Source: a virus
Direction: 5' to 3' (one strand)
Virus record (IMG/VR): IMGVR_UViG_3300009155_000285
Coordinates: 1-23,225 of that record
Length of the DNA stretch: 23,225 nt
The position numbers and the translations under genes are program-made. The notes below the pieces were generated by a model. It was not told the DNA's origin. It ran no database searches and saw nothing but the letters and a program-made list of their open reading frames with translations. This document shows, piece by piece, positions 1,259 to 17,200 of this stretch. Every line of letters begins with the position of its first letter. Position 1 is the first letter of the stretch.

Positions 1259-1283
1259 CGATATAGGAGATGCTTTACTATGA
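1131..1283 (+). CDS. Small gene in a frame overlapping the zinc-ribbon gene
   Basis: In another frame, about 50 codons run from ATG 1131 (preceded by AGAAGAAGAAA, a weak ribosome site) to a stop at 1283 that overlaps the next gene's ATG as ATGA, a coupling arrangement used repeatedly in this genome. Earlier ATGs in the same frame exist at 1053 and nearby. The product contains AELMAWWPFTRLDPKRFP, which looks like a real conserved protein segment (Trp-Trp, Pro, Arg-Phe-Pro). The overlapping tail of the zinc-ribbon gene looks random by contrast. Function is unknown. The alternative is that it is an unused frame. Confidence 0.4.
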   Translation: MGTDSQQKKDSKPLTQAELMAWWPFTRLDPKRFPKQPKRTMPDDIGDALL

Positions 1284-1486
1284 CTACAGGAATTGAATTT
1301 CTAAAACCTGAAATCAAGCGTAAAGGTAGGGGGCCAAGCAAGAAACCAGCGCTAGCGTGCACCAGCTTACGCTTGCCTGAATATGTGCTGGCCTACTTCA
1401 CCAACAACTTCCCTTACCGAAAGCAAGCCAAGATGAGAGAAGTGCTCGCCGAGTACGTCGAAAATCAGACTAGACCCCCCACCTAA
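1280..1486 (+). CDS. Putative ribbon-helix-helix type DNA-binding protein
   Basis: This is a 68-aa basic protein. A Lys/Arg-rich N-terminal arm (KRKGRGPSKKP) is followed by a short strand-like SLRLPEYVLAYF, a turn, and a helix KMREVLAEYVEN. That strand-helix-helix order, with the 'SLRLP-x-V-x-x-YF' pattern, resembles ribbon-helix-helix proteins such as BrnA-type antitoxins. The assignment is by pattern only. If correct, it would be a small dimeric repressor. It sits next to a perfect 15-bp palindrome at its own 3' end and upstream of the replication promoter, so it is a candidate regulator of the sites described at 1482 and 6531. It is the last gene before the terminator. Confidence 0.55.
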   Translation: MTTGIEFLKPEIKRKGRGPSKKPALACTSLRLPEYVLAYFTNNFPYRKQAKMREVLAEYVENQTRPPT

Positions 1487-1496
1487 CATTGTTAGG
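1482..1496. promoter_or_regulatory. Perfect 15-bp palindrome, candidate operator
   Basis: CCTAACA-T-TGTTAGG has two perfect 7-bp arms around one central base. It overlaps the stop codon of the RHH-like gene and lies about 50 bp upstream of the -35 box at 1547. The same half-site (CCTAAC/GTTAGG) flanks the -10 box of the second promoter, and the central ACAWTGT recurs in both -35 regions. A repressor or activator site is inferred. A weak RNA hairpin with a 3-nt loop is the alternative. Confidence 0.5.
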
Positions 1497-1512
1497 CTAA
1501 GGGAAAACACCG

Positions 1513-1536
1513 AGCCCGCCTAGTGCGGGCTTTTTT
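1513..1536 (+). terminator. Rho-independent terminator of the small-gene operon
   Basis: AGCCCGC and GCGGGCT pair as a 7-bp GC-rich stem with a 5-nt loop (CTAGT), followed by six T residues on the plus strand. It separates the cluster of small genes from the replication promoter that starts 11 bases downstream. There is no T-run on the opposite strand, so it acts only on plus-strand transcription. Confidence 0.85.
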
Positions 1537-1546
1537 GCGTCTTGTG

Positions 1547-1574
1547 TTGACAATGTAAAAAGATGTGCTATAGT
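1547..1574 (+). promoter_or_regulatory. Sigma70-like promoter of the VRR-NUC/polymerase operon
   Basis: A perfect -35 box (TTGACA, 1547-1552) and a -10 box TATAGT (1569-1574) are separated by 16 bp. A TGC directly before the -10 makes it an extended -10 promoter. A ribosome site (AAGGAG, 1591-1596) and ATG 1604 follow. The -35 region shares 14 of 16 bases with the promoter at 6516. Confidence 0.8.
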
Positions 1575-1603
1575 TAAAGCTACCCTTTCAAAGGAGCGAT
1601 TAT

Positions 1604-1933
1604 ATGGCATCAACACCTGAAGCCAAAGTGAAAGCGAAGATCAAAGCGATCTTAAAAGCTAACAACGTGTACTACGCCATGCCTATTGGCACGGGCTACG
1701 GCAACAGCGGCGTGCCGGACTTTCTATGTTGCGTCAACAGCATGTTCTTAGCGATAGAAGCAAAGGCTGGTAAGGGCACAACCACCGCGCTACAAGCCAA
1801 AAATCTACGAGAAATCCAAGAATCCGGGGGTTTTACCTTAGTCCTCAGCGAAGAAAGCATCAAACAGCAGGTTCTAGAGTTTGTATTGCACTATATGAAC
1901 CATACAAAACTAAGCTATGAATGTCCTCCATGA
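1604..1933 (+). CDS. VRR-NUC domain nuclease (Holliday-junction-resolvase-like)
   Basis: This 109-aa protein is a stand-alone VRR-NUC domain of the PD-(D/E)XK superfamily. The diagnostic core is visible: an N-terminal helix with Glu6, then GNSGVPDFLCC with Asp39, then AIEAKAGKG with Glu52-x-Lys54, then LQAKNLREIQESGG with Gln64. These are the expected metal-binding and catalytic residues. Phage members are usually annotated as nucleases and are thought to cut branched DNA; that activity is inherited from the family, not shown here. It is the first gene after the 1547 promoter and overlaps the polymerase start, so a role in processing replication or recombination intermediates is likely. Confidence 0.88.
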   Translation: MASTPEAKVKAKIKAILKANNVYYAMPIGTGYGNSGVPDFLCCVNSMFLAIEAKAGKGTTTALQAKNLREIQESGGFTLVLSEESIKQQVLEFVLHYMNHTKLSYECPP

Positions 1934-3747
1934 ATGTCCTAACAGTTGATTTTGAAACCTACTACTCCTCTGACATAGGCTTCTCTAAGCAGACTACTGA
2001 GGAATACATAAGAGACCCTCAGTTTGAGGTGATCGGCGTAGCGGTACAGGAGAATGATGGCGAGCCGGTGTGGTTAAGTGGTGACGCAGCTGCCATTCAT
2101 AGCTTCCTTTCTTCCTACGATTGGGCTAATTCGCTAGCCATAGCACACAACGCAGCATTCGATGGGGCGATACTTAACTGGATATACGGTATAAATCCAA
2201 AGGGTTGGATAGATACGCTGTCAATGGCACGTGCGCTACACGGCACTGAGGTAGGCGGTAGTCTTGCGGTGCTAGCCTCTTACTACGAACTAGGCGTCAA
2301 AGGTACGGAGGTAGCTAATGCTAAGGGGTTGAAGCGGCAAGATTTTTCCGCCGACCAGCTTGCAAAATACGGTGAGTACTGCGCCAACGATGTACGACTT
2401 ACGTGGGATTTGTTCAAGGCTATGAGCAAAGAGTTTCCGCCGTCGGAGCTTAGACTTATTGATCTAACCATACGTATGTTTACAGACCCAGTACTGCGGC
2501 TAGATATCGATTTGCTCAATAGACATTTGGAAGCCACCAAAGAAGCGAAGGCGGCACTGCTCGGTGGATTTAATCGTGAAGATTTGATGAGCAACCCCAA
2601 GTTCGCCGACCTGCTCAGAAATCAGGGTGTTGAGCCGCCTATGAAGAAGAGCCCGACTACAGGTAAGCAGACCTACGCACTGGCTAAGAATGACCAAGGG
2701 CTTAAAGATTTATTGGAGCACTCCAACTCAGTTGTGCAAGCCTTGGTAGCCGCTAGGCTTGGTACTAAATCCACCATTGAGGAGACGCGCACTGAGCGGT
2801 TCGTTGGGATTGCAAATCGCGGGGCGCTACCCGTACCTTTGCGTTACTACGCCGCGCACACTGGTCGTTGGGGCGGTGACGACAAGATCAACTTACAAAA
2901 CTTGCAGAGGAATTCCCCACTTAAATCAGCGATCATTGCCCCCAATGGCTACGTGATGATTGACTCGGACTCATCGCAGATTGAAGCTAGGACTTTAGCG
3001 TGGCTAGCAGGGCAAGATGATCTGGTGAAAGCCTTTGATAACGGCGAGGATGTATACAGAATCATGGCGTCCGCTATCTACGGTAAGAACATCGAAGACA
3101 TTACAAAAGATGAGCGGTTTGTTGGAAAAACTACGATCCTTGGTGCTGGTTACGGCATGGGCGCTATAAAGTTCAAGGCGCAGCTTAAAAGTTTTGGTGT
3201 TGAAGTTTCGGATGACGAGGCGCAACGAATCATCCAAACATATAGGTTGACTTACCCCAAGATACCGGAGCTGTGGAAGTCCGCTGGTGTCGCACTTAAG
3301 GCCGTCCTGCAAAACCAACAGACTACGTTGGGCCGTGGTGGCGTACTCGAAGTAAGGGGGGCTGACGGCATATTACTGCCCAACAAATTGTTTATACGCT
3401 ATCCAAACCTCAGACTGCACGACGACGAGAATGGCAAAACAGAAATGGTGTACGACACCAAGAAGGGCAAAGCAGTTATACCTAACCGTATATACGGTGG
3501 GAAGGTCGTGGAGAACGTATGCCAAGCGTTAGCACGTATTGTGATTGGCGATCAGATGCTGCGGGTAGCGAAGAAATACAGAGTGGTCATGACTGTTCAT
3601 GACGCGATTGCTTGCGTGGTGCGGGAAGAAGAAGCTGTAGCCGCTAAAGAATACGTCGAGGTGTGCATGAGGAGTAGGCCAACTTGGGCCCCCGAATTGC
3701 CACTAAATTGTGAGGCCGGATGTGGCAAATCTTACGGAGACTGCTAA
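1930..3747 (+). CDS. Family A DNA polymerase with 3'-5' exonuclease domain
   Basis: I take the ATG at 1930, which forms an ATGA overlap with the upstream stop. An in-frame ATG at 1921 would add three residues, and the residue numbers below use that longer 608-aa form. The exonuclease domain has DFETYYS (Asp10, Glu12), AHNAAFD (Asp81) and YCANDVRLTWDLF (Tyr153, Asp157). The polymerase domain has TGRWGGDDKINLQNLQR (about 314-330), motif A DSSQIEAR (Asp350), motif B RFVGKTTILGAGYG (Arg399, Lys403, Tyr411) and motif C VHDA (Asp561). There is no 5'-3' exonuclease. All catalytic aspartates are present, so it should be the active phage replicase. Two unusual points are Leu407 at the position equivalent to E. 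coli Phe762, and Ala where motif C normally has Glu. Confidence 0.95.
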   Translation: MNVLTVDFETYYSSDIGFSKQTTEEYIRDPQFEVIGVAVQENDGEPVWLSGDAAAIHSFLSSYDWANSLAIAHNAAFDGAILNWIYGINPKGWIDTLSMARALHGTEVGGSLAVLASYYELGVKGTEVANAKGLKRQDFSADQLAKYGEYCANDVRLTWDLFKAMSKEFPPSELRLIDLTIRMFTDPVLRLDIDLLNRHLEATKEAKAALLGGFNREDLMSNPKFADLLRNQGVEPPMKKSPTTGKQTYALAKNDQGLKDLLEHSNSVVQALVAARLGTKSTIEETRTERFVGIANRGALPVPLRYYAAHTGRWGGDDKINLQNLQRNSPLKSAIIAPNGYVMIDSDSSQIEARTLAWLAGQDDLVKAFDNGEDVYRIMASAIYGKNIEDITKDERFVGKTTILGAGYGMGAIKFKAQLKSFGVEVSDDEAQRIIQTYRLTYPKIPELWKSAGVALKAVLQNQQTTLGRGGVLEVRGADGILLPNKLFIRYPNLRLHDDENGKTEMVYDTKKGKAVIPNRIYGGKVVENVCQALARIVIGDQMLRVAKKYRVVMTVHDAIACVVREEEAVAAKEYVEVCMRSRPTWAPELPLNCEAGCGKSYGDC

Positions 3748-4430
3748 TGAGCGAGAAAAAAGAAAGTACTGTTTGGTCTTTTAGTAGCCTTAAAACATTT
3801 CAACAATGTCCTAGAAAGTACTACCACACCAAGGTAGTTAAAGATGTTGTCGAAGGTGACACGGAGGCTACGTTGTATGGTAAGTCCGTGCATACGGCTG
3901 CTGAAGAATACATACGTGACGGCGTGGCCCTACCTGCACCCTACGCCTATATCAAACCCCTATTGGACAAACTTAACTCTATTCCCGGAGAAAAATTATG
4001 CGAAGTGAAACTAGGTCTAACGAAGAACTTGGAGTCTTGCGAATTCAATGCTCCGAATGTTTGGTGGCATGGGATAGCCGATTTGGTAGTTATCAATCGG
4101 GAGAAGAGCCTAGCGTACTCAGTGGACTACAAGACAAGCAAGAGTGCGAGATATGCGGACGTAAAGCAATTGGATTTGGTGGCTTGTGGGCTTTTCGCCA
4201 AGTTCCCGGAGATAAAGAAGGTGAAGAGCGGGTTGGCCTTTGTCGTATCGAATGAATTTATCAAGGCCGAACATCATGCTGAAAGGATTCTTAAGTACAT
4301 GGAGAAGCCAACACAAGATGTAGCCCGCATTGAAGCGGCTAAGAAGAATGGCGTATGGAATCCGATATGGGGGCCGCTGTGCAAGTTTTGCGCGGTGAAG
4401 ACTTGCGAGTACAACAAAAGTAGAGACTGA
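3747..4430 (+). CDS. RecB/Cas4-like PD-(D/E)XK exonuclease with Cys cluster
   Basis: The start ATG at 3747 overlaps the polymerase stop (TAATG) and follows GGAG; the frame continues upstream but inside the polymerase. The 227-aa product has the RecB-family nuclease motifs: QCPRKYY, GKSVHTAAEEY (His49), GIADLVV (Asp112) and VDYKT (Asp127, Lys129). Four cysteines (Cys21, then Cys212-x2-Cys215-x4-Cys220 at the C-terminus) have the arrangement of the iron-sulfur cluster of Cas4 and AddB-type nucleases. It is probably an exonuclease making single-stranded ends for recombination or repair. There is no CRISPR array or other cas gene nearby, so a CRISPR role is not supported. Confidence 0.85.
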   Translation: MSEKKESTVWSFSSLKTFQQCPRKYYHTKVVKDVVEGDTEATLYGKSVHTAAEEYIRDGVALPAPYAYIKPLLDKLNSIPGEKLCEVKLGLTKNLESCEFNAPNVWWHGIADLVVINREKSLAYSVDYKTSKSARYADVKQLDLVACGLFAKFPEIKKVKSGLAFVVSNEFIKAEHHAERILKYMEKPTQDVARIEAAKKNGVWNPIWGPLCKFCAVKTCEYNKSRD

Positions 4431-4846
4431 TGCGCCCCATATACGAAACCGATCAGGATAGGGGCAGAGAGCGCGAAGTGCATTCGTACTTGGAGTCTAA
4501 GCTTGACTGCGTATTCAAGGTCGCCGACAGGCTCTCAAATGTGGATGGATTTTTGTGTAGTGTCGACGGTGAAATGGTAGCGGCTGTGGAGATCAAGACT
4601 AGGCGCAACTCGAAAGCCAAGTACCCCACGTACATGTTGAGCGCGGCTAAGTGGCGCAACGGGTTGGAAACCGGTAAGATTTATGGAGTCCCATTTGTTC
4701 TTATTGTTAAGTTTACCGACGGTATCTATGCCGTTGCGTTATCCGACAGGTACAAGACGAGCCACGGCGGGAGGTATGACCGAGGCGATGCTAGGGACGC
4801 AGAAGAATGTATATACATCCCGATTGACAAATTCCACGAAGTTTAA
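4430..4846 (+). CDS. Putative PD-(D/E)XK-type endonuclease
   Basis: This 138-aa protein begins in a TGATG overlap with the preceding nuclease gene. An N-terminal helix with Glu residues (GREREVHSYLE) is followed by NVDGFLCSVDGE (Asp39), then AAVEIKTRRN with Glu54-x-Lys56, and SAAKWRNG. This is the order and spacing of a minimal PD-(D/E)XK nuclease fold such as small resolvases or restriction-like endonucleases. The assignment rests on this motif pattern alone. The C-terminal part (DGIYAVALSDRYK, then IYIPIDKF) looks like the outer strands of a beta-sheet. It lies between two other nuclease genes, which supports a role in DNA processing. Confidence 0.6.
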   Translation: MRPIYETDQDRGREREVHSYLESKLDCVFKVADRLSNVDGFLCSVDGEMVAAVEIKTRRNSKAKYPTYMLSAAKWRNGLETGKIYGVPFVLIVKFTDGIYAVALSDRYKTSHGGRYDRGDARDAEECIYIPIDKFHEV

Positions 4847-4855
4847 GGAAACACC

Positions 4856-5134
4856 ATGCCATACGTAAACAAACCCAGACCTTACAAAAAAGAGTACCAA
4901 CAACAGTTAGATAGAGGTGAAGGTAAAGCTAGGCTAGAAAGAGAACGTGCTAGAGAAGATATGGACAAGCGCGGTGTCAACCGAGCAGGTAAAGACATTG
5001 ACCATGCCATACCGCTATCTAAGGGCGGCACTAACTCTCCTAGCAACCTGCGCTTGAAGTCGCCGAGCGCCAATCGATCTTTCAGTCGCAATTCAGATCA
5101 CACAGTTAAAGTAAACAAACCAAAGAAAAAATGA
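4856..5134 (+). CDS. HNH endonuclease
   Basis: This is a small basic 92-aa protein with a canonical HNH core: DIDHAIPLSKGG (Asp49, His50), SPSNLRL (Asn64) and SANRSFSR (Asn73). The first 45 residues are a highly charged helix and the last dozen are Lys-rich, both probably DNA-contacting. A ribosome site AAGGAA lies at 4846-4851. The stop overlaps the start of the helicase gene (ATGA). Free-standing HNH proteins in phages can be homing endonucleases or packaging or recombination nucleases. Tight operon packing here argues for a regular part of the replication module rather than a recent insertion (inference). Confidence 0.85.
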   Translation: MPYVNKPRPYKKEYQQQLDRGEGKARLERERAREDMDKRGVNRAGKDIDHAIPLSKGGTNSPSNLRLKSPSANRSFSRNSDHTVKVNKPKKK

Positions 5135-6519
5135 GTCTATTAGAGTATGAGTGGCCACGGCCTCACGGGTTCACCCCGTTCGCGCATCAGCAGACAACAG
5201 CGGAGTTTTTGGTAACAAACCGCAAAGCGTTCTGCTTCAACGAACAAGGTACGGGTAAGACAGCATCAGTTATATGGGCTGTAGATTATTTGATGCAACG
5301 TGGGTTAGTAAATCGAGTGTTAGTGATCTGCCCCTTGTCGATCATGAAGTCGGCTTGGCAGAATGATTTGTTTAAGTTTGCTATCCACCGGACTGTAGCT
5401 ATCGCTTACGGAGCCGCAGATAAACGCAGAGCCGCCATAAGCAGCAATGCAGAATTTGTGATCATAAATTTTGACGGGGTCGGCATCGTTAAGAAAGAGA
5501 TTGCTGCCGGTGGATTCGATTTGATTGTTGTAGATGAAGCATCAGCGTACAAGAATCCGCAGACGGACAGATGGAAAGACCTGCGGGATCTTATGAAAAC
5601 TATTAAAGGTCTATGGATGTTGACGGGTACACCGGCAGCGCAGTCGCCTGTGGATGCTTATGGATTAGCAAAGCTTGTCAATCCCCAGTCAGTGTCTCCT
5701 TTCTATGGGCAGTTCCGCGACTCGGTCATGCAAAAAGTTAGCGAATTTAGGTGGATTCCTAGGCCCGATGCACAGAACACAGTACATAGAATATTGCAAC
5801 CCGCGATACGATTTGAGAAAGCTCAATGCTTAGATCTTCCACCAGTTACCTACGTCTACAGGGACGCTCCACTTACGCCACAACAACTTAAGTACTACAA
5901 CACGCTTAAAAAGCAAATGCTTATCGAGGCTGCCGGAGAAGAAGTGTCGGCAGTCAACGCCGCAGTACGCATCAACAAGCTGCTACAAATAGCTGGCGGG
6001 GCGGTGTATACCGACAGCGGGGAGATCATCGAGTTTGATGTGTCCCAACGACTGCAAGTCATCCGAGAAGTTATAGAAGAGTCGAATCATAAAGTTCTGG
6101 TGTTTGTCCCGTTTACTCATACCATAGAACTGCTACAGAAGTACTTAGAAAAACATCACGTTACATGCGAGGTAATAAACGGTTCCGTTAGCGTGAACAA
6201 ACGTACTGACATTGTCAGCAGGTTCCAAAGCCGAGAAACCCCCAAGGTCTTGATCATCCAACCACAAGCTGCTTCGCACGGTCTAACACTAACCGCCGCC
6301 GACACCATCATCTGGTACGCCCCATGCTCTAGTGTAGAAACGTATCTGCAAGCTAATGCTAGGATTGATAGGCCGGGCCAAGTGAACAACATGACCGTGG
6401 TGCACATAAATGGCAGTCCTGTAGAGAGAAAGATGTACGCCTTACTACAAGGCAACATTGACAACCACAACAAAGTGATTGACTTGTACAGACAAGAAAT
6501 TTCTTCGGATGACTCTTGA
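5131..6519 (+). CDS. SNF2-type superfamily 2 DNA helicase/translocase
   Basis: The 462-aa protein shows the motor motifs in order: FAHQQTTAEFL (Q motif, about 18-27), NEQGTGKTAS (Walker A, 38-46), VVDEASAYKN (motif II, Asp135-Glu136), LTGTPA (motif III, 164-169), and in the second RecA-like lobe QAASHGLTLTAADTIIWY and QANARIDRPGQ (motif VI, Gln407, Arg411, Arg414). 'DEAS..KN' with 'R.DR.GQ' is typical of the compact SNF2-like helicases of phages. It should be an ATP-dependent DNA translocase used in replication, recombination or fork remodelling. It is coupled to the HNH gene by an ATGA overlap and ends the first replication operon, with the next promoter's -35 overlapping its stop codon. Confidence 0.92.
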   Translation: MSLLEYEWPRPHGFTPFAHQQTTAEFLVTNRKAFCFNEQGTGKTASVIWAVDYLMQRGLVNRVLVICPLSIMKSAWQNDLFKFAIHRTVAIAYGAADKRRAAISSNAEFVIINFDGVGIVKKEIAAGGFDLIVVDEASAYKNPQTDRWKDLRDLMKTIKGLWMLTGTPAAQSPVDAYGLAKLVNPQSVSPFYGQFRDSVMQKVSEFRWIPRPDAQNTVHRILQPAIRFEKAQCLDLPPVTYVYRDAPLTPQQLKYYNTLKKQMLIEAAGEEVSAVNAAVRINKLLQIAGGAVYTDSGEIIEFDVSQRLQVIREVIEESNHKVLVFVPFTHTIELLQKYLEKHHVTCEVINGSVSVNKRTDIVSRFQSRETPKVLIIQPQAASHGLTLTAADTIIWYAPCSSVETYLQANARIDRPGQVNNMTVVHINGSPVERKMYALLQGNIDNHNKVIDLYRQEISSDDS

Positions 6520-6543
6520 CATTGTACAAAGTTAGGTTATACT
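6516..6543 (+). promoter_or_regulatory. Sigma70-like promoter of the ssDNA-binding/primase operon
   Basis: A perfect -35 (TTGACA, 6516-6521) overlaps the helicase stop codon. A 16-bp spacer and -10 TATACT (6538-6543) follow, then a ribosome site (AGGAG, 6561-6565) and ATG 6573. The -35 region (TTGACATTGTACAAAG) is nearly identical to that at 1547 (TTGACAATGTAAAAAG), with the same 16-bp spacing. Confidence 0.8.
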
Positions 6544-6556
6544 AAATTTCCCTAAC
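6531..6556. promoter_or_regulatory. GTTAGG...CCTAAC inverted half-sites flanking the -10 box
   Basis: GTTAGG at 6531-6536 and CCTAAC at 6551-6556 form a 6-bp inverted repeat with 14 bp between them, enclosing the -10 box and the expected transcription start. The same hexamers build the perfect palindrome at 1482-1496. A protein bound here would block RNA polymerase, so this is a candidate repressor site. Confidence 0.45.
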
Positions 6557-6572
6557 CAACAGGAGCTAACAC

Positions 6573-6998
6573 ATGGACGATCAGGTTCAGGAGGACGTAA
6601 CCTCCATGCCACTCGATAAGATGGCCGCAGCGTATATCCGCATACGCGATGCTAGAGATGAACTAAAACGCAAATACGAGGCAGAGGATGAGGGCTTGAA
6701 AGAGCAACTGTCCGTGCTAGATGGGCACATCTTAGAAGTATGCAAAGAAATGAACGCCGACAGCGTTCGCACAAAACATGGCACGATCATACGTTCAGTC
6801 AAGTCACGGTACTGGACTAATGATTGGGATTCAATGTATTCGTTCATAGATGAACACAATGCATTTGGCCTGTTAGAGAAGAGACTTCATCAAACAAACA
6901 TGAAGATTTTTCTTGAAGAGAATCCCGACGTTCTCCCCGCTGGACTCAACGTAGAGAACTCTTATACCGTGGTTGTTAGACGTTCTAAGGAAAACTGA
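6573..6998 (+). CDS. Conserved phage protein of the replication module, function unknown
   Basis: The 141-aa product has an N-terminal coiled-coil-like helix (DKMAAAYIRIRDARDELKR and the charged stretch after it). A small alpha/beta part follows with HGTIIRSVKSRYWTNDWDSM, then FGLLEKRLHQTNMKIFLEEN, and it closes with a basic strand (YTVVVRRSK). I recall this type of protein next to ssDNA-binding and primase genes in several siphophage and podophage genomes, but no activity is known to me. The coiled coil plus a basic domain would suit a DNA-binding or single-strand-annealing accessory role (speculative). It is first in the operon from the 6516 promoter and has a clear AGGAG ribosome site. Confidence 0.75.
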   Translation: MDDQVQEDVTSMPLDKMAAAYIRIRDARDELKRKYEAEDEGLKEQLSVLDGHILEVCKEMNADSVRTKHGTIIRSVKSRYWTNDWDSMYSFIDEHNAFGLLEKRLHQTNMKIFLEENPDVLPAGLNVENSYTVVVRRSKEN

Positions 6999-7935: not shown

Positions 7936-8175
7936 ATGAGCTATGGTTACAGCCAGTGGCTAGTGGACGCTAATAAAAAAGCTTCTCTCAAGTCACTGGG
8001 CGTAACCTTGGGCCGACTCTGCATACGGTTAGGTGTGCCGGTGAACGATGTTGCACAGGAACTAGACGTGAGCCGGATGACGGTTTACAACTGGTTCTGG
8101 GGTCGTTCTGTCCCCAGCAATAAGCACAACGACAAGATCGCCGAATATCTGCAAGTCCTCAAGAAACGCCAATAA
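7936..8175 (+). CDS. Helix-turn-helix (Cro/XRE-like) DNA-binding protein
   Basis: The 79-aa protein contains LGRLCIRLGVPVNDVAQELDVSRMTVYNWFWGR (printed here in parts: VNDVAQELDVS is the first helix and turn, RMTVYNWFWG the recognition helix). This is the arrangement of Cro/XRE-type domains, and there is little else in the protein. The ribosome site GAGGAG overlaps the stop codon of the previous gene, giving tight coupling, and the primase gene begins just after its stop. It may be a small regulator of the phage's own promoters or a primase/origin accessory protein. It is a candidate ligand for the palindromes at 1482 and 6531. Confidence 0.75.
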   Translation: MSYGYSQWLVDANKKASLKSLGVTLGRLCIRLGVPVNDVAQELDVSRMTVYNWFWGRSVPSNKHNDKIAEYLQVLKKRQ

Positions 8176-14200: not shown

Positions 14201-17200
14201 TGTTCTTTAAGTTCGTCTGGAATTACCGACGCAGTAGATATAGGTTCTTTTGGTTTATTGGTAGCCGATGCATACGTTGCTCCATCCATAGTTTCATCTA
14301 TGGCTTCTATCAGACCTTCAGGCATAGGCGCGGACAGCAGTTTGTCCGTGGCGTCAATCAATTCCATCAGGGCATTGTTTTCTGCTTCACCATTTTTACC
14401 TGTACCAATACCCAGTACTCTAGAAGCAGCGCGTACAAAGTCGCTAAACGCCGACGCTACTTTGCCTATTGGTGTTTCAAATCCCTTTAGCTTGCGCAAA
14501 AAGTTTTGTACGCTAACCTCGGTCAGTGCGTACGACAAGAACTCATCTGGAGAGGTAAATATTTCGTAGTAAATTTCGCCTGTGTCCTCATCCCTAACCG
14601 CTGTGCTTTTTACCCTAGCAGTCAACGCATCAGAAATAAGCCCCATTCCTTCCATCCGTTCGTAGGAGTCACGAGCAAGCTCCATCAACTTAATAATTTG
14701 GTCGGTGAACTTTTTGGCTTTGGGGTTTAGGTCAGCCATGCCCGCATACAGACGGCTATTCAAAGCTGCGTGCAGTATCTCGTGCAAAACTGTGACGTTG
14801 TTTTGGCCGTTGAATTCTCCGAAACTTGTCCCAGTGATGTATATGACCGGGTCAGTGCCGGGCATGAACAATCCGTTCCAACGACCTTCTGGGTTTTCGC
14901 CTGCACTTGTAAGTCGAGCGGGAAGGGGTTGCCCTTTTTCAAGCACCACAATACGCAGGTTAGGAACAAACTGACGTAGTCGGTTGGCCAGTAGCTTTTG
15001 GAACCATGAACCAGACTTTGCAATAATTGTCAGCGCCTGTGCTCCAGTCATTATCCCCGTGAGTTTTGGGTTTGCTTTACGAACGCCGTTTTTACGCGCC
15101 TCGGAAAATCTAGCCTTAGTTGTATAGCTACCATCTTCCGCTTGGTTAGCCGCATTAAGCTCTTGCCGTGCTTCGTCAAGAATCGTTTCTTGTCTGGTTT
15201 TAGACCGCTTGGCTCGTTCTATGTCTTTTTCAGAAATTTTTGTTTTGTCGTTTAAGACAGCCTTGACCCGCTTACCCAGTGCGGTGCCACGATGCGCCGC
15301 TTCTAAAGCAAGCAGCTCTTTAACTACAAATAATTTCTCTTGGTCTTTTTCTCTTTTAGCCTGCTCTAGGGCTATTTCGTTCTCCATCTCGGCTTCATCA
15401 ACGGGCGTGTTTGCAGCCTCTAGTTGCTTAAGCAGATTGTTTTTGTTACCGCTGAACTGACGCTCAGCAGCGGTGTAGTCCTTGCGGGTTTCTTTACGCT
15501 CACCTTCTTTAGCCGCTTTTTGCTCAGCAGTTAGAGGCTTACGTCCAGCACCCGGTGCTCGTTTTTTAGTAGCCGTAACTTGTTGTTCAATAAACGCTTG
15601 ATCTTCAGGTGAAGCGTTTTGAATTTCGTCTAGCTCGGCTTGGAGTGCGGCTTGGTCGTCTGTGGTTGAGGCTGCTTTTTGTCCCTGCGTTTCTGCTACA
15701 GCTTCAGTAGGTGTACCAGCAGGTTGAGTCGTATCGGTTTCGGTAGTGGTAGGCGCAGTAGTAGGCTCACCAATCGTCTCTGTCGGTCTAGGTTCATTTG
15801 TCGTCTCGGTTAATGTACGGGGCTGCGCCCCTTGTTGACGTTTGGTTAATTCTGCTTGTACGAGCGCATTTTCGTCATCATTGAGGTAGATATTGTTGAG
15901 TTCAATGTTTAACTGCTCATCAGACAGTTTGCTAATTGCTTCCGGTGTAACCGCTCCGCGAGTCAACCCTAATGCACTGGGCTGTGATCCCTCTCCAGCA
16001 GTAGGTTCTGTAACAGGTTGTCCAGCAGATACCATTCCACTTGGTTCAGCCCCTCCAACCCCTTGGGCGGGTACGTTTGCACTGGGCTCGCCAGCCACGC
16101 TAGTGCCTGCTCCAGTTGTTCCTCCGATAGGTCTTGTAACATCAGTGGCTCCTTGTACTTCCTCTTGGGCAAGCGCATCTGCTTCTTTTTCGCCTTTAAT
16201 TTGTTGGGGGGCTAGTGTAAGAGCGACTTTAGGGTCAATACCCGCGTCAATCAATTCTTTTACGCGCTGTTCAATTTCATCCTGCGCGGGTTCAATAATA
16301 GCGTCTTTAATTCTCTGCTTGCGGTTTTCCAATACGCGCTTAGCTGCAATGCGGCGAGCACTGTCTTCAGGAAAGTTTTGCGCAAGCAGGCTTTGCGTTA
16401 TCTTCTCAGTTTCCTCTTGCTCCATTTCGTCAAATGAACGATAAAGCTTTTGCTGTTCGGTAGGTGCGCCGGGACGTTCTTCCCCTAGAGGCCCTAGATC
16501 GGCGGAGGATGTAATAGTTGTAGGAATTTGCTGTGCTTTTTGTTCAAGCTGCGCAGACTCGCGTAAATTAGAACGGGCTTCTAATGGCGCGGTAATCCCC
16601 TCGGCCAAACCTTCGAGCAACACAGCGGCGGGTTTGTTTTCCCCAGTCAGCTTTTGTGCAGCAAATTCACCGCCAGCACCACCAGCCATTTGAGTTGCTA
16701 GCTCTTTACCCCATGCAGCGACGGTTGCTTTCTTAGCCGCAGCACCTGCAAGTTTGCCTTCCGCAATGAGAGCTTGGGCAGGGCGCAAAAACCGACCTGC
16801 AATGCCCATAGTGAGGCCATCGATGATGCCGATTGTCATACCACGTTTAGCTGCTTTGTCTTTAACCTCGGCAATAAACTCCGGGTCTTTTAGCGCTTTG
16901 GCAATTGCATTTGGGTCAAGCATGTTGACTTTGCGGTCTTGGAGAACATCAGCCATAACCGAACCATACTCCATACCACCAGAAGTAACTCCGGCTGCAA
17001 CACTTCTAGTAACCACTCCGGCTGGGCCTAACACCAATGCAGGGGCCATAGTAGGTAGGCTAGTCAAAACCGATTCTGCCAACATAGCCATTGTGGCGCG
17101 TGGGTTATCGTAAAGTGCTACGGCAGCATCACCAAAAGTTTTGGCTTCACCGATTGCTCGCATACCTTCTTGAATATCGGAGTTAGGAGCAGCGGCGGCT

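Follow-up and report, generated by a model that had tools for sequence, protein, structure and literature searches.

The window, meaning the whole stretch of 23,225 bp analysed here, is an IMG/VR record in which the replication genes occupy the plus strand (1-11 kb) and the late genes the minus strand. Replication operon 1 opens with a small nuclease-like gene (1604-1933, plus strand; a weak VRR-NUC/Hjc-like match), followed by the gene for DNA polymerase (1921-3747, plus strand). Replication operon 2 begins with a gene at 6573-6998 (plus strand) and continues with an SSB-like gene from 7000, the gene for a HTH protein (7936-8175, plus strand) and a primase/helicase gene from 8177. The window DNA polymerase is 59-74% identical to the polymerases of 80 uncultured phage contigs that we retrieved, the closest isolated relative is distant (DNA polymerase 38% identical at best, Rhizobium phage RHph_TM3_14A), and megablast of the whole window against phages gave no match. 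The nearest contig, L119, shows 98.2% DNA identity to the window and begins at window position 1166. Related DNA polymerases (59% and 53%) were also found within two long MAG contigs (L239, 1.1 Mb; L247, 304 kb), which are possibly integrated or mis-binned phage. The search of bacterial genomes returned MAG contigs only and was uninformative on the host, and no tyrosine integrase (PF00589) was found in 12 records.

The early block ends with the gene for a small, basic RHH-like (BrnA-like) protein (1280-1486, plus strand). The RHH fold consists of one beta strand and two helices and is an obligate dimer; the AF2 model of the window protein as a monomer has two helices at pLDDT > 90, and no PDB match was found for its fold. 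Directly upstream lies a NrdR-like zinc-ribbon protein (1043-1258; PF22811 over the cut-off) that lacks the ATP-cone part. The small genes at 660-1042 are shared, at 80-95% identity, with phages that are not related in other respects (L214-L224, L229), which suggests that genes were exchanged recently, and a search with the small upstream proteins for the window's missing early block found only unrelated phages sharing single genes. Downstream of the RHH gene, three relatives (L009, L019, L043) encode a HTH fused to a DUF3310-like domain (PHROG 'nucleotide kinase'), and more distant relatives have the C-terminal DUF3310-like domain alone, without the HTH. We discarded this fusion as a candidate regulator, as it is not universal and is missing from the window.

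A perfect palindrome of 15 bp, CCTAACATTGTTAGG (1482-1496), overlaps the stop codon of the RHH gene and has the core TAACA-T-TGTTA at 1484-1494. It belongs to a family that we write as TAACA-N(k)-TGTTA, where k is the number of bases between the half-sites (here k = 1). The palindrome lies 16 bp ahead of an intrinsic terminator (AGCCCGC-N5-GCGGGCT and a T run; 1513-1536, plus strand) that closes the early block. Most relatives show the same order of palindrome, intrinsic terminator, promoter and nuclease/polymerase operon, and the palindromes at the homologous place are 14-17 bp long, some with arms that are altered yet symmetric (e.g. CCTGACATTTGTCAGG and TCTTACATTTGTAAGA). Each replication operon is preceded by a plus-strand promoter with a 16-bp spacer: replication promoter 1 (1547-1574) has its -35 box TTGACA at 1547-1552 and its -10 box TATAGT at 1569-1574, and replication promoter 2 (6516-6543), which overlaps the helicase stop codon, has TTGACA at 6516-6521 and TATACT at 6538-6543. 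Both fit the sigma-70 type, for which one expects -35 and -10 boxes 16-18 bp apart, close to a gene start and conserved among relatives. In both, the -35 box runs on into an operator-like extension, TTGACAATGTAAA (1547-1559) and TTGACATTGTACAA (6516-6529).

An earlier note on this DNA, whose motifs were all correctly located, had proposed that the hexamer CCTAAC/GTTAGG and the core ACAWTGT mark both promoters as targets of one phage regulator. The hexamer occurs twice in the palindrome and again as GTTAGG at 6531-6536 and CCTAAC at 6551-6556, flanking the -10 box of promoter 2; the core is found as ACAATGT at 1550-1556 and as ACATTGT at 6519-6525. The four half-sites had been described as non-coding, which does not apply to 1482-1486, where the RHH gene ends (TAA = 1484-1486). 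The statement that far less than one copy would be expected was too strong: CCTAAC is not enriched in the window, which holds 14 copies against 10.05 +/- 3.58 expected, and 19 of 100 shuffles reach 14 copies. Since the hexamer had been picked post hoc, once seen, we took conservation as the real test. The palindrome at 1482-1496 passed it, since most relatives have one in the corresponding position, and almost all of them keep the ACAWTGT core at the two -35 boxes. The 6531/6551 pair is not conserved and is probably incidental. Of the counterparts of promoter 2 listed for L002-L081, none has it, though they retain TTGACA-W-TGT and a -10 box. It recurs only in L119, which is identical over almost the whole of both promoter regions, and there the recurrence is uninformative because the DNA is 98.2% identical.

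What the two promoters do share is the -35 extension. Two TTGACANNGT promoters, one before the nuclease/polymerase operon and one before the 6573 operon, are present in nearly every record covering both regions, mostly 53-59 bp ahead of the start codon. Among 126 distinct promoter sequences, constraint extends to positions that the search pattern had left free (M at position 11, A in 97% at position 13), and the resulting -35 consensus, TTGACAWWGTMAA, is near-palindromic. The centre of the -35 element is one base (or the element reads TTGAC-N3-GT) regardless of the k of the phage, and relatives with k = 2 or 3 keep TTGACA-W-TGT. Because this centre is constant whatever the k, the palindrome and the -35 motif are not one site, and the idea that a single regulator reads both is not supported. 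The best candidate for the -35 operator is the HTH protein of operon 2 (PF13384, 25.5 bits against a cut-off of 24.6), whose PHROG matches are regulators. Among contigs complete from helicase to primase, the extension is found in 56 of 56 that encode the HTH protein (53 by the strict regex, plus L041, L047 and L073) and in none of the four that do not. These four represent two lineages (L040/L044 and L075/L077), so that the argument relies on two independent losses; the Fisher test with the strict regex gives p = 7e-5, a value uncorrected for relatedness. In L040/L044, which share one loss of the HTH gene, no TTGACNNNGT promoter was found at all. This co-occurrence supports the HTH protein as the shared regulator of both replication promoters, and since its gene lies within operon 2, autoregulation together with control of operon 1 would be the simplest reading.

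Two other readings of the promoter elements were considered. That the four CCTAAC/GTTAGG half-sites form a single operator group spanning both promoters is hardly credible; all four occur in the window and in L119, but the pair is lost from the homologous promoters of L002-L081 while the -35 element stays, the outcome that the earlier note itself had said would count against its proposal. As that pair is not conserved, a link between the two promoters through the hexamer is not supported. It is also unlikely that the -35 extension is simply the form of promoter preferred by the host polymerase, with no phage regulator involved. The extension does overlap the consensus TTGACA and is common to all 126 distinct promoters; however, the early promoters of the same phages (TTGACA-N17-TATAAT, with GTGG before the -10) do without it, as do the relatives that lack the HTH protein. 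The notion of an operator-like element common to both replication promoters, and missing from the other promoters of these phages, has survived in the -35 extension, and of the two candidate regulators named at first, the HTH protein is retained as the best one for this element.

The palindrome leads to a different set of sites. In 80 RHH-centred contigs, 848 kb in all, we counted 474 TAACA-N(0-4)-TGTTA sites, compared with 0 for control arms, and 79 of the 80 contigs hold at least one. A census without a preset motif gave a similar picture, the commonest recurrent palindrome with 6-bp arms usually being CTAACA-N(k)-TGTTAG, restricted to one early block; variant arms are ATAACA in G003 and CCTACANNNTGTAGG in G011-G013. 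There are up to 22 copies per early block. In oriented records the counts of the 5-bp core reach 16 at k = 3 (G001), 22 and 17 at k = 2 (G004 and G003) and 19, 13 and 12 at k = 1 (G010, G007 and G006), with essentially none for control arms. The value of k (1, 2 or 3) is mostly fixed within each phage and mixed in a few (G009, G041, L010, L192-L193). In the larger records the sites keep to a single early block, about 8-15 kb long and all on one strand, and no more than 1-2 of them fall outside it. While the spans bearing mapped copies are mostly 83-97% coding, 118 of 161 mapped copies lie between genes, run across the end of a gene or contain a start codon, and the remaining 43 lie inside genes. 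The search pattern TTGACA-N11-13-GTGGTA yielded 21 promoters, one of which, at 15227 of G034, is of the TTGACAAAGT type and not early. At the early ones a palindrome lies 26-78 bp past the transcription start, save for the two early promoters of G043, which have none nearby. By homology, the single palindrome of the window is assigned to such a dispersed array.

The protein that best follows these arrays is encoded by the leftmost early gene, and we refer to this unannotated protein as LEP. All 12 cases of LEP type 50 are paired with k = 2 and all 5 of type 79 with k = 1; G001, whose LEP is divergent, has k = 3. On a tree of three early genes, LEP type 50 needs four changes, at least three of them forced by well-supported branches, and k switches in step with each. 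An unbiased scan of all ORFs for those closer to genomes with k other than 2 ranks LEP first of 38 in G039 (198 bits against 0 in k = 2 phages), first of 45 in G038 (193 against 0) and first of 131 in G001 (77 against 0). Profile comparison shows types 50, 79 and 89 to be homologous (hhalign 96%, E 5.8e-9; cross-hits 2e-5). In G011, which carries CCTACANNNTGTAGG sites, a weak match to LEP (E 0.0028) lies where the gene would be expected. G043 has the RHH gene and early promoters and is missing LEP, and its sole palindrome is the pre-terminator copy. The co-variation comprises about four independent switches and one loss. No Pfam or PDB relative of LEP was found, nor a PHROG relative above chance; its predicted structure matches no known structure, and it was not found in 50,697 phage records. 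Most members are not basic (pI 4.7-8.6). In L207 (G039), two tandem LEP paralogues of 163 and 191 aa lie at the left end of the early block. As the left edge of the window falls after most of the early block, the place expected for LEP is outside the record; we infer that the phage of the window carries it, though among relatives whose RHH protein is similar to that of the window there are phages with an array and phages without one.

That LEP rather than the RHH protein would bind the dispersed palindrome fits the data better, because k switches together with LEP and because LEP-less G043 keeps the RHH gene but loses the array. It is quite unlikely that a single regulator, the RHH-like protein encoded by the final gene of the early block, occupies the dispersed palindromes and brings the early phase to its end. 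Its gene is present in every record with palindromes of the TAACA or CCTACA form and is lacking in G016 and G017, whose palindromes differ, and the protein itself is basic (pI 9.9) and RHH-like. Against this, G043 has the RHH gene and one site only, and the residues of the RHH protein are no better predictors of k than those of the DNA polymerase. An identical RHH protein accompanies differing site sets in L010 and G003, a comparison that we dropped as a clean test against RHH since L010 is apparently mosaic. G043, the residue association test and the ORF scan together disfavour the RHH protein as sole determinant of the dispersed sites. Very unlikely, too, is that the palindromes act as RNA hairpins, either as translational operators or as part of a terminator. 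Many copies embed or precede start codons and the window copy sits before a terminator, but the conserved stem is just 5 bp, A/U-rich and with a centre of 1-3 nt, the 43 copies within genes speak against it, and spacer length tracks a protein gene and not loop sequence. Near-matches differ almost solely at the outermost base in ways that break pairing (29 of 32 mispairs are neither G.T nor A.C, and 1 is G.T), so that G.U pairs are missing and a DNA site fits better than an RNA hairpin.

Overall, we lean moderately towards two circuits, with the HTH protein acting at the -35 palindrome of both replication promoters and LEP at the dispersed palindromes of the early block. The -35 palindrome TTGACA-W-W-GTMAA would be the operator of the operon 2 HTH protein, which, sitting over both -35 boxes, would turn off both replication promoters and regulate its own operon. 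LEP, bound to the scattered palindromes, would shut off the early block and so end the early phase, by roadblock-like interference with elongation, by occluding translation starts, or both. The pre-terminator copy may have another role, since LEP-less G043 retains one; with the terminator it could shield the replication promoter at 1547 from early transcription. We infer all protein-DNA binding, repression and roadblock steps from sequence, and DNA binding by LEP is suggested by its co-variation with the sites. We see an even chance that a large group of uncultured phages runs the early phase with LEP as a new DNA-binding family that reads the scattered palindromes, with the half-site TAACA fixed, a spacer of 1, 2 or 3 setting specificity and a LEP swap rewriting whole arrays. 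Should these sites indeed be read by LEP, the phages, which apparently lack lysogeny genes, would show how the specificity of a regulator and of about 20 scattered operators shifts in concert, more than once and through the length of the spacer only. The co-evolution of operator arrays, usually a topic of prophage immunity, would then become testable with small purified proteins. Likely functions would also follow for the LEP family, which has no annotation, and for the small HTH protein encoded in replication operon 2.

We found no description of the dispersed palindrome array in the open-access literature, and the nearest parallels are other scattered phage sites. The stoperators of cluster A phages, read by the immunity repressor of L5 and TipsytheTRex, are 13-bp asymmetric, orientation-dependent sites found genome-wide in temperate phages; a single phage protein, a monomeric HTH repressor, recognises them, and blocks of both initiation and elongation have been proposed (PMC9283540). 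As there (>20 sites; PMC9283540), many short, near-identical sites lie at promoters and in short intergenic gaps, a dispersal that is seen in the relatives, the window itself holding one copy. In contrast to stoperators, the sites here are perfect palindromes confined to the early block, and the linked protein, LEP, is non-homologous and not of the cluster A HTH type. Temperate immunity as the role of the array was set aside, given the 12 records in which no tyrosine integrase was found. In cluster K phages, SAS/ESAS occur in 11-19 copies per genome at translation starts, SAS being 13-bp and asymmetric and ESAS imperfect 17-bp inverted repeats with variable spacers (PMC3203893). There too a single motif is scattered over many genes; the motif here differs in that it is short and perfectly palindromic, with a fixed spacer that is mostly particular to each genome, and in that it occurs also within genes and before a terminator. 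SPBRE of SPbeta is a dispersed 15-bp intergenic motif at prophage promoter regions read by the phage master repressor MrpR, a recombinase-fold protein, and the sections of that report considered here do not describe the spacer switching seen in our phages (PMC10516654). With respect to RHH antitoxins of the BrnA type, the window RHH protein weakly matches a BrnA-like-annotated protein of Agrobacterium phage JP1 (44% over 36 aa) and, unlike those antitoxins, has no Pfam match. Other palindromes were also seen: GTTACC-N6-GGTAAC in 12 copies across the non-structural region of Rhizobium phage RHph_TM3_14A (L117 8501-34046, MN988472), where HMM search found no LEP homologue; TGTAGT-N4-ACTACA in 5 copies in L102/L103 (G016) and ATTAAC-N4-GTTAAT in 10 copies in L104-L106 (G017), several with a ribosome-site AGGA in the centre, both groups being without RHH or LEP; and, in L114 (G011), L091/L092 (G012) and L054 (G013), a second palindrome, GTACCACANTGTGGTAC, over the spacer and -10 box of early promoters, suggesting yet another operator. 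We place the TAACA palindrome family among the dispersed phage operators, as a variant in its own right and distinct from stoperators, which are marked by an asymmetric site and a HTH repressor.
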